Below, in pieces: positions 1 through 29,307 of a stretch of DNA of 32,645 bases. The number at the start of each line of letters is the position of its first letter. Within the stretch, counting starts at the first letter, position 1. Origin of the DNA: Bacteroidales bacterium. GTDB lineage: Bacteria > Bacteroidota > Bacteroidia > Bacteroidales > UBA932. Below the pieces are notes generated by a model that made no database searches, was not told the origin of the DNA, and worked only from the letters and a program-made list of their open reading frames with translations. The position numbers were made by a program, and so were the translations under genes. The stretch spans positions 1-32,645 of the forward strand of contig JAFSQE010000005.1 of NCBI GenBank assembly GCA_017446775.1. The letters are read 5' to 3'.

Positions 1-33
1 CTTTCTTTTTGTGCCCTTGCGGGCACTTATTTT
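1..33. repeat. Direct repeat copy A with a small hairpin
   Basis: This 33-nt sequence recurs exactly at 109-141. It contains the hairpin GTGCCC-TTGC-GGGCAC followed by TTATTTT, which looks like a plus-strand intrinsic terminator; read on the minus strand the loop is GCAA, a GNRA tetraloop. The copy begins at the window edge, so it may extend further left. Confidence 0.85.
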
Positions 34-79
34 ACTAGGGGGCTCTGCCCCCTAAAACCCCTGCGGCGCAAAGCGCCGG
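29..79. repeat. GC-rich interspersed repeat, copy 1
   Basis: These 51 nt match 29045-29095 at 46 of 51 positions by direct alignment. The unit starts ATTTTACTA, then has a G-tract/C-tract hairpin (GGGGG-CTCTG-CCCCC), then CCCCTG and a second hairpin (CGGCGC-AAA-GCGCCG). It is non-coding and lies between two copies of a 33-nt direct repeat. A short REP-like or other interspersed element is the likeliest reading; the family is not known to me. Confidence 0.75.
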
Positions 80-84
80 TAGAC

Positions 85-110
85 TTGAAGTCTGTCTTTG
101 AAGTCTGTCT
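85..110. repeat. 13-nt tandem repeat, two units
   Basis: TTGAAGTCTGTCT occurs twice back to back (85-97 and 98-110). The first unit overlaps the small palindrome AGACTT-G-AAGTCT at 81-93. The tandem joins the GC-rich repeat to the second copy of the 33-nt direct repeat. Confidence 0.8.
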
Positions 111-141
111 TTCTTTTTGTGCCCTTGCGGGCACTTATTTT
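109..141. repeat. Direct repeat copy B with a small hairpin
   Basis: This is an exact second copy of positions 1-33, including the GTGCCC-TTGC-GGGCAC hairpin and the trailing TTATTTT. It ends 8 nt from the stop codon of the minus-strand gene at 150-503. On that strand the hairpin is followed by an A-run rather than a T-run, so it is not an obvious terminator for that gene. Confidence 0.85.
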
Positions 142-28894: not shown

Positions 28895-28905
28895 CTCTAT
28901 ATTTG
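28875..28905 (+). promoter_or_regulatory. Promoter for tRNA-Thr
   Basis: TTG (28875-28877), a 20-nt spacer and TATATTTG (28898-28905) match the Bacteroidota consensus. The -33 element lies inside the last codons of the TlpA-type gene, and the start of transcription would fall a few nucleotides before the tRNA. Confidence 0.7.
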
Positions 28906-28915
28906 CGCTCTCAAA

Positions 28916-28988
28916 GCCTTTTTAGCTCAGTCGGTAGAGCAGCTCATTCGTAATGAGCAGGTCGCGGGTTCGAGTCCCGTGAAAGGCT
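28916..28988 (+). tRNA. tRNA-Thr (anticodon CGU)
   Basis: A full cloverleaf folds by hand. The acceptor stem pairs GCCTTTT with GAAAGGC (one T-G pair). The D arm is GCTC...GAGC, the anticodon stem is GCTCA/TGAGC with loop TTCGTAA (anticodon at 28949-28951), and the T arm is GCGGG-TTCGAGT-CCCGT with its usual loop. The discriminator is T and no CCA is encoded. It would read ACG codons. Confidence 0.96.
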
Positions 28989-29022
28989 CGAAACAAGCCA
29001 GGCGATTGCCTGGCTTGTTTCG
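28989..29022 (+). terminator. Perfect 15-bp hairpin after tRNA-Thr
   Basis: CGAAACAAGCCAGGC pairs exactly with GCCTGGCTTGTTTCG around the loop GATT, beginning right after the tRNA discriminator base. It is followed by TCCTTTC rather than a clean T-run. Pairing can extend into the tRNA itself: 28976-28986 is complementary to 29024-29034. Confidence 0.7.
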
Positions 29023-29036
29023 TCCTTTCACGGGCC
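29012..29036. repeat. 25-nt direct repeat, copy A
   Basis: Made of the 3' arm of the tRNA terminator plus CCTTTCACGGGCC. It is repeated exactly at 29106-29130, with the GC-rich interspersed repeat lying between the two copies. Confidence 0.85.
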
Positions 29037-29044
29037 TTTGGCCG

Positions 29045-29095
29045 ATTTTACTAAGGGGCGCTGCCCCCGAAGACCCCTGCGGCGCAAGGCGCCGG
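29045..29095. repeat. GC-rich interspersed repeat, copy 2
   Basis: This matches 29-79 at 46 of 51 positions, keeping ATTTTACTA, the G-tract/C-tract hairpin, CCCCTGCGGCGCAA and the GGCGCC end. Like copy 1, it sits between direct duplications of terminator-like local sequence. Confidence 0.75.
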
Positions 29096-29105
29096 CCGCG
29101 CCCGC

Positions 29106-29130
29106 GGCTTGTTTCGTCCTTTCACGGGCC
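29106..29130. repeat. 25-nt direct repeat, copy B
   Basis: An exact copy of 29012-29036. Its CCTTTCACGGG core (29118-29128) is again the reverse complement of the tRNA-Thr 3' end at 28976-28986. Confidence 0.85.
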
Positions 29131-29141
29131 ATTATACATTC

Positions 29142-29253
29142 GACGGGCAGATAATTGCCGTAGGCTTGAAAGGGTTTGCGACCGGCGTTAGGGAGGGAGG
29201 GGACTGACCGACCGTCAGGGAGCAAAACTTTCAAGCGGAGGCATCTGCCCGTC
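29142..29253. other. 112-nt nested inverted repeat (structured RNA or MITE-like element)
   Basis: The ends GACGGGCAGAT (29142-29152) and ATCTGCCCGTC (29243-29253) are perfect complements. Inside them CTTGAAAG (29165-29172) pairs with CTTTCAAG (29228-29235) and TTTGC with GCAAA. The apex holds a G-rich run (GGGAGGGAGGGG) and a small CTGAC-CGACC-GTCAG hairpin. It lies 54 nt before the PCC-domain gene. No target-site duplication is seen. Together with 28989-29130 it fills the gene-free stretch between tRNA and PCC gene. Confidence 0.6.
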
Positions 29254-29307
29254 AATATAGGTTCAATTATTTTTCGTATCTTAGCGGTTACTGATAAACA
29301 AAATAGT

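Follow-up and report, generated by a model that had tools for sequence, protein, structure and literature searches.

A structured repeat dispersed in stable-RNA trailers of a Bacteroidales genus and some of its relatives

The window, by which we mean the whole 32,645-nt stretch analysed, is the entire contig C11 of a 2.0-Mb Bacteroidales draft genome in 35 contigs, and it holds a short GC-rich repeat twice, each time between two identical pieces of terminator sequence. What is this repeat, where else does it sit, and how does it come to lie between copies of a terminator? A preliminary description, made from the sequence alone, had reported a 51-nt repeat with exact flanking duplications and had proposed a small element that arrives with, or provokes, duplication of terminator hairpins. 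Its measurements stand: 46 of 51 positions agree between 29-79 (copy 1) and 29045-29095 (copy 2), the 33-nt flanks of copy 1 (1-33 and 109-141) are identical, and so are the 25-nt flanks of copy 2 (29012-29036 and 29106-29130). Here we find that a structured, dispersed repeat occupies the stable-RNA trailers of a group of uncultured gut bacteria, one Bacteroidales genus and some relatives, at a nearly constant spacing and in one orientation.

Two repeat copies in tRNA trailers of the window

All features mapped at the two copies lie on the plus strand. Copy 2 stands in the trailer of a tRNA-Thr(CGT) gene (28916..28989; ARAGORN, and Rfam RF00005 at 65.2 bits). The gene is followed by its primary terminator-type hairpin (28989..29022), recognised as an inverted repeat and by folding, with 15-bp arms at 28989-29003 and 29008-29022 and a 4-nt loop. 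The left copy of the 25-nt duplication (29012..29036) does include the 3' arm of this terminator, as had been stated; it also continues into an inverted copy of the tRNA-Thr 3' end, on which the preliminary description was silent. This inverted copy, here called X' (29024..29037), is 93% complementary to 28973-28986 and pairs with it in the predicted fold. A small fold-back hairpin, GGCC-TTT-GGCC (29033..29043), read from the sequence and of the same type as at other loci, precedes the element proper. The 47-nt core of copy 2, a member of what we term family A, occupies 29049..29095 and scores 67.0 bits with R1, a covariance model of that core; pairing places hairpin 1 at about 29055-29067 and hairpin 2 at 29080-29094. 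A hairpin scan adds a third, terminator-like hairpin (29094..29109), and the right copy of the duplication follows at 29106..29130, the pair being extendable to 28 nt at 96% identity. Directly behind copy 2 (29142-29253) lies a second repeat of ~110 nt with GACGGGCAGAT / ATCTGCCCGTC ends; stretches resembling it occur at many sites of the genus (query positions about 282-395), at least eight of them in genome G017.

Copy 1 opens the window. The window start shares 130 nt with the end of contig C6, next to tRNA-Leu(CAG), so the first bases belong to the trailer of that gene and both copies thus stand behind tRNA genes. Positions 1..33, the left 33-nt copy, comprise the end of the tRNA-Leu(CAG) terminator, X' and a fold-back hairpin (11-26), as judged from the repeat and the C6 overlap. 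The family A element follows at 33..79 (R1 78.2 bits; hairpin 1 at 37-53, hairpin 2 at 64-78), then a third hairpin of copied terminator sequence (81..93, hairpin scan) and the right 33-nt copy (109..141). The overlap with C6 is an assembly break in the tRNA-Leu(CAG) trailer and perhaps a collapsed tandem array.

Besides these 25-nt and 33-nt pairs, the window has no exact direct repeat of at least 25 nt spaced within 150 nt, and 20 mononucleotide shuffles of the window gave no 15-mer direct repeat of that spacing. A 41-nt core of the repeat occurs twice, against 0.00 expected from 100 dinucleotide shuffles. Folding exceeds that of shuffled sequence for 28970-29117 (z -6.47) and for 33-141 (z -4.65); the core of copy 2 plus its flanks folds no better than shuffles (z -0.08 and -0.55). 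A promoter search at 28900-29300 found none, and Rfam 15, applied to the window and 20 loci, returned tRNA, rRNA and tmRNA, with no family above its gathering score on the repeat.

The same order recurs at most loci: primary terminator hairpin, X', small fold-back hairpin, leader, hairpins 1 and 2, and mostly hairpin 3. X' is an inverted copy of the 3' end of the RNA gene and prolongs the 3' arm of the terminator, while the fold-back hairpin is composed of X' plus a partial copy of X'. The leader has a consensus close to CCTATTTTAC, and the linker between hairpins 1 and 2 contains ACCCC. In a MAFFT alignment of 59 copies (58 distinct rows, 13 pairs), pairing holds in 98.3% of 744 cells; column shuffles give 91.7%, and sliding the partners gives no more than 54%. 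Here 32 cells carry two-sided changes, against 4.1 +/- 1.8 in shuffles, and five pairs covary, although related rows inflate these scores and template switching at the DNA level would also yield compensatory changes. A third hairpin begins within 5 nt downstream in 52 of 66 distinct right flanks, compared with 17 of 195 control places, and 25 of those 52 are followed by a T-rich tail (at least five T in the next 9 nt), compared with 2 of 17 controls; the other 27 lack such a tail, as do hairpins 1 and 2. The primary hairpin, and often the third, resembles an intrinsic (rho-independent) terminator in having a GC-rich stem and then T. Intrinsic terminators share structure and not sequence, whereas the sequences of hairpins 1 and 2 recur at unrelated loci.

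Occurrence behind stable RNA genes and at orthologous sites

In the window's own genome (G000), a pattern search with the 41-nt core, allowing up to three mismatches, gave nine matches, and the reversed pattern used as control gave none. All nine lie 3' of stable RNA genes: tRNA-Leu(CAG), Thr(CGT), Met, Arg(ACG) twice, Arg(CCG), tmRNA and 5S rRNA, with two of the nine being a single locus viewed from two contig ends. The ends of contigs C4 and C35 (L006 end, L007 start) have 270 nt around tRNA-Arg(ACG) in common with 5 mismatches, and their copies may represent one locus in two strains or a duplication. R1 recovers the same copies at 67-78 bits, plus one cut by the end of contig C10. The latter may belong to tRNA-His, since the tRNA-His flank on C16 ends inside such an element and the sequence downstream of the C10 copy resembles, by eye, that downstream of tRNA-His in G021. 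The total is about 8-10 loci, fewer than in typical REP families. Weaker R1 matches are a diverged tandem pair behind tRNA-Leu(GAG) and otherwise mostly a second family, B, with five of its ten places behind tRNA genes and five having no tRNA called within 1.5 kb. A third family, C, is a palindrome of CCCCCTTCCC-GGGAAGGGGG type with six distinct places in this genome, all behind tRNA genes (up to three mismatches; L292, L293, L294, L295, L296 and L299). That the repeat is a general terminator element is rejected for family A by its position, the picture for family B being mixed. A second, sub-threshold tmRNA match (32.9 bits) lies ~2.5 kb behind the tmRNA gene of the same genome (L289; G000:C32:114157-114288).

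Across 60 genomes, R1 has matches in 21: the window's own, 19 of 25 congeners and, with weak scores, one genome of another genus. Among 95 tabulated matches, 94 reach 25 bits, and 55 of these lie within 90 nt (0-83) 3' of a tRNA, tmRNA or 5S gene on the same strand, with RNA genes called by ARAGORN and, in 20 loci, by Rfam. The distance is 41-76 nt for 52 of the 55; the remaining three are 5S cases at 0, 81 and 83 nt. Another 17 matches stand 91-260 nt from an RNA gene and are further array units or nested or displaced copies; for 14, fewer than 150 nt are available upstream, with no RNA gene in them, and eight lie in other contexts; one own-genome locus is counted twice here (L001 and L002, the latter in the class without upstream sequence). 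At 60 bits or more (n=41), the corresponding numbers are 29 near, six at 91-260 nt, two without upstream sequence and four other. The preliminary description had raised the position of copies relative to gene 3' ends; nearly all placeable copies stand behind stable RNA genes, which it had not seen.

Four of the eight copies in other contexts keep, by eye, traces of a stable-RNA trailer: an inverted tRNA-Leu(CAA) end (L099 and L081), an inverted tmRNA end (L067) and an inverted tRNA-Thr end (L126). In G021 (L335; G021:C2:126800-132300), ~5.1 kb lie between tRNA-Leu(CAA) and a trailer with the inverted end and the repeat (L099), and two ORFs of this stretch are serine recombinases by Pfam match (Resolvase, 83 and 106.9 bits). 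The stretch is probably an island that displaced the tRNA-Leu(CAA) trailer, which explains why L099 is not next to an RNA gene.

A second model, R2, built from 59 copies, was run on 199 genomes of the family and matched 31, which fall into 4 of 25 genera. Outside the window's genus, 14 of the 28 matches listed have a stable RNA gene no more than 90 nt upstream (11 by ARAGORN, three more by Rfam). Among the listed matches, both of those in genus g2, 10 of 18 in g39 and 2 of 8 in g46 are so placed, and the variant in g46 is therefore not tied to RNA genes. In public sequences, a stringent pattern found 12 stretches of named contigs (six MAGs), all labelled Bacteroidales or Bacteroidia, the scan being of an exact pattern in a collection from which near relatives of the window's genome may be absent. 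Sheep reticulum, yak rumen and goat omasum each appear in one MAG title; two further MAGs carry RUG labels, which denote rumen genomes, and the sixth gives no source. All genomes compared are MAGs and drafts, and the wider model search covered one family.

Empty orthologous sites, which had been suggested as a thing to look for in relatives, exist at both RNA genes that we followed, as do sites with other contents. At tRNA-Thr(CGT), 20 loci were read by eye. Family A stands there in G000 and G009 and truncated in G006; G018 has family C plus a fragment of A between two terminator copies, and G023 and G025 have family C. A B-type element is present in G010, G016, G003 and G011. G021 has the terminator and X' and nothing more, G014 has the terminator with neither X' nor element, and eight genomes have neither terminator nor element. 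At tmRNA, where 24 loci were read and four (G008, G013, G024 and G025) were not classed, nine genomes carry family A and G012 an A-like copy cut by a contig end. X' is kept with no recognised element in G006, G023, G016 and G002, B-type elements or B fragments stand in G007, G020 and G021, and neither X' nor element is found in G004, G011 and one of the two tmRNA genes of G001. The two tmRNA genes of G001 have different trailers (L263, L288), perhaps through contamination of the MAG. These mixed contents mean that flanks and repeat are separable. Orthologous sites are patchy, but by themselves they do not distinguish gain from loss.

Duplicated terminators and inverted RNA gene ends

At 51 loci, four others with short flanks having been dropped, we compared the stretch from RNA gene to repeat with as much as 110 nt downstream of the repeat, and took 2362 cross-locus pairs from different RNA genes as background. 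Exact matches of 15 nt or more join the two sides at 9 of 51 loci versus 0.30% of mismatched pairs, and matches of 11 nt or more at 16 of 51 versus 3.3%; the other 35 loci fall short of 11 nt. Duplicated terminators go with the repeat much more often than chance would give, though in a minority of about a fifth to a third of loci. The flanking duplication noticed in the window therefore recurs above background but is no rule, and the generalisation from two of two copies to an element always arriving with a duplication is refuted by the copies that have none.

The duplications of at least 15 nt at the nine loci vary in length (17-33 nt). Behind tRNA-Arg(CCG) in G006 (L098) and G020 (L096) stand tandem arrays of three units with a 97-nt period, which look like an extended form of the duplications. 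By eye, duplications also occur at four loci of another genus (L311, L319, L330 and L334), and family C likewise lies between duplications at the own-genome tRNA-Leu(CAA) and tRNA-Lys(TTT). Because they also surround this unrelated family, the duplication seems to belong to the site and not to one repeat. The earlier view that the flanks are local terminator sequence and the repeat a distinct dispersed element is borne out. That flanks and repeat form one fixed longer unit is rejected by the orthologous sites and the family C duplications.

X' was scored, at 6 nt or more, against the presence of a family A, B or C element within 200 nt of the RNA gene, with one gene per genome omitted for a flank below 100 nt. 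In the window's own genome, X' accompanies 13 of 17 RNA genes with an element versus 2 of 23 without (p=2.8e-5), the family C pattern having been loosened once after own-genome flanks were inspected (earlier p 0.001 at 6 nt). With the loosened pattern unchanged, and with some of their loci previously inspected, the numbers are 7 of 10 versus 5 of 30 in G021 (p=0.0033) and, a weak link, 5 of 6 versus 10 of 30 in G017 (p=0.063 at 6 nt, 0.039 at 7 and 0.0076 at 8); in this test tRNA-Ile genes are credited with an element that is actually behind the next gene, tRNA-Ala. Some trailers in G021 and G017 lack an element while having both X' and the fold-back hairpin; some truncated elements there stop after hairpin 1. 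X' and the repeat can be independent, in that X' also stands without the repeat.

Spread, function and rival explanations

The observations to be explained are the position, strand and pairing of the repeat, its several copies per genome, its patchiness, the duplications and X'. We tentatively favour, with slightly less than even confidence, a reading drawn from sequence comparison in which this is a REP-like repeat of stable-RNA trailers that serves as a predicted back-up terminator and spreads by template switching. In the transcript, the element would act as a back-up terminator module after the primary terminator, by way of the third hairpin. Copies would originate when replication switches template at the terminator, a nearly perfect palindrome. 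There, the nascent strand would fold back and copy the 3' end of the RNA gene, giving X' and the small fold-back hairpin; it may then copy a repeat out of another trailer. On its return, the strand would re-copy part of the terminator, so that the element ends up between two terminator copies. Such a route would require no dedicated transposase.

Template switching is described in PMC8794818 as making reverse-complement copies, perfect hairpins and compensatory changes, and we prefer it to an unknown transposase on that account. Quasipalindrome or template-switch mutation (PMC8794818; see also PMC7202029) would account for X' and the fold-back hairpin; the abstract and outline of PMC8794818 report no sequence family spread among tRNA trailers such as we see here. 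Copies behind different RNA genes within one genome have a likeness of 0.837 (51 pairs), compared with 0.784 for the same RNA gene across genomes (92 pairs) and 0.782 for different genes in different genomes (675 pairs), the comparison having pooled tRNA-Met genes of different kinds; in a closer clade, within-genome and orthologous copies are about equal (0.854 vs 0.846). This pattern fits within-genome copying together with inheritance. Against the template-switch and terminator reading stand the roughly half of third hairpins without a T-rich tail, the 35 of 51 loci without a duplication of at least 11 nt, the weak X' link in G017, the trailers in which X' occurs with no repeat, the core and flanks of copy 2 that fold no better than shuffles, and the variant in g46 that is not tied to RNA genes.

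A further-reaching proposal, which we regard as no better than a minority possibility, is that stable-RNA terminators are self-organising insertion sites, with near-perfect palindromes, extended by fold-back into the RNA gene, that capture and exchange families A, B and C without a transposase, so that a repeat family of tRNA, tmRNA and 5S trailers would spread through errors of replication. In a bolder variant, a retro route, the terminated transcript would prime copying from its own 3' end.

Among the rivals, the one we rate marginally highest, though we consider it rather unlikely, is a vertically inherited trailer module acting in termination, protection or 3'-end processing, its patchiness being due to loss or replacement and its duplications to tandem duplication provoked by hairpins. 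The covarying stems, the near-constant distance to the RNA gene, the same architecture behind tmRNA in nine genomes with changed stem sequences, and the same arrangement in a second genus (the 10 of 18 matches in g39) would all suit it. It sits poorly with a single orthologous tRNA-Thr site that holds three different families or nothing, and with within-genome copies that are as alike as orthologous ones or, over the whole sample, more so.

The preliminary description had offered a REP/REPIN-like element moved by a transposase as one possible explanation. Stated more fully, a RAYT (Y1 tyrosine transposase) would prefer single-stranded DNA near terminator hairpins, which would fix the orientation. 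The element is short, palindromic, dispersed and of uniform orientation, and 21 of the 26 genomes of the genus have Y1_Tnp genes (17 above the cut-off), with open reading frames some 250-400 aa long. Yet ten stretches with Y1 genes from eight genomes, a subset of these genes, hold no copy above 10 bits, the single match scoring 9.5 bits. G002 and G006, both drafts, carry the repeat and have no Y1 transposase at E<=0.001. Nor are the tags conserved: GTAG occurs at two places, in 7/69 and 2/69 copies, and CGTC in 7/69, with none at the other places tested. Long terminator duplications are not a known product of IS200/IS605-type transposition. With tags not conserved, no copy beside the Y1 genes examined and two draft carriers without a match to such a gene, a REP transposase as mover is not supported, and we judge it improbable.

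A conventional MITE, moved by some transposase and making long target-site duplications of terminator sequence, would account for the 9 of 51 loci with exact duplications (15-33 nt) on both sides of the element; since the duplications vary in length and ends, most loci have none, and the aligned copies show no evident terminal inverted repeats, we consider it very unlikely. An assembly artefact, in which k-mer collapse at repeats created the duplicated flanks, could draw on the contig break and 130-nt overlap at the window start and on the 14 of 94 matches with a contig end within 150 nt upstream, and is given next to no credence because copy 2, like its two flanks, is internal to the contig, whose right end is 3.5 kb away, and the architecture recurs in separately assembled MAGs and in another genus.

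How does the repeat compare with known systems? GTAG or CGTC tags mark REPs (PMC3733652). With REPs and REPINs, our repeat has in common that it is a short palindromic intergenic repeat with several copies per genome, near gene 3' ends and in a plausibly transcribed orientation. It differs from them in having neither a conserved GTAG/CGTC tag nor a Y1 gene beside a copy examined, in being bound to stable RNA genes, and in the terminator duplications at a minority of loci. In Methanopyrus kandleri, about half of the tRNA genes are followed, at a constant spacing, by a palindromic motif (PMC5217627). That motif is archaeal, short and 10 bp from the tRNA end, and the part of PMC5217627 at hand shows for it none of the dispersal, arrays, duplications or association with tmRNA and 5S genes found here. 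In the open-licence PMC papers, we found no published description of an element such as ours.

The distal repeats of E. coli tyrT are tandem, lie behind a tRNA gene at one locus and carry direct copies of the tRNA 3' end; here, there are many loci, inverted copies of the RNA end and a shared hairpin repeat.

The repeat also accounts for a share of the contig breaks at tRNA genes in MAGs of this kind. Descriptions of short palindromic repeats usually place them behind protein genes and ascribe them to a transposase, whereas this family sits, across species, at the ends of stable RNAs. Its orthologous sites can be compared as empty, truncated and filled, with locus-specific inverted copies of the RNA gene adjoining. 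Two questions thereby become testable: whether replication errors suffice for a repeat family to spread, and whether RNA genes under heavy transcription may carry a second, shared terminator module.
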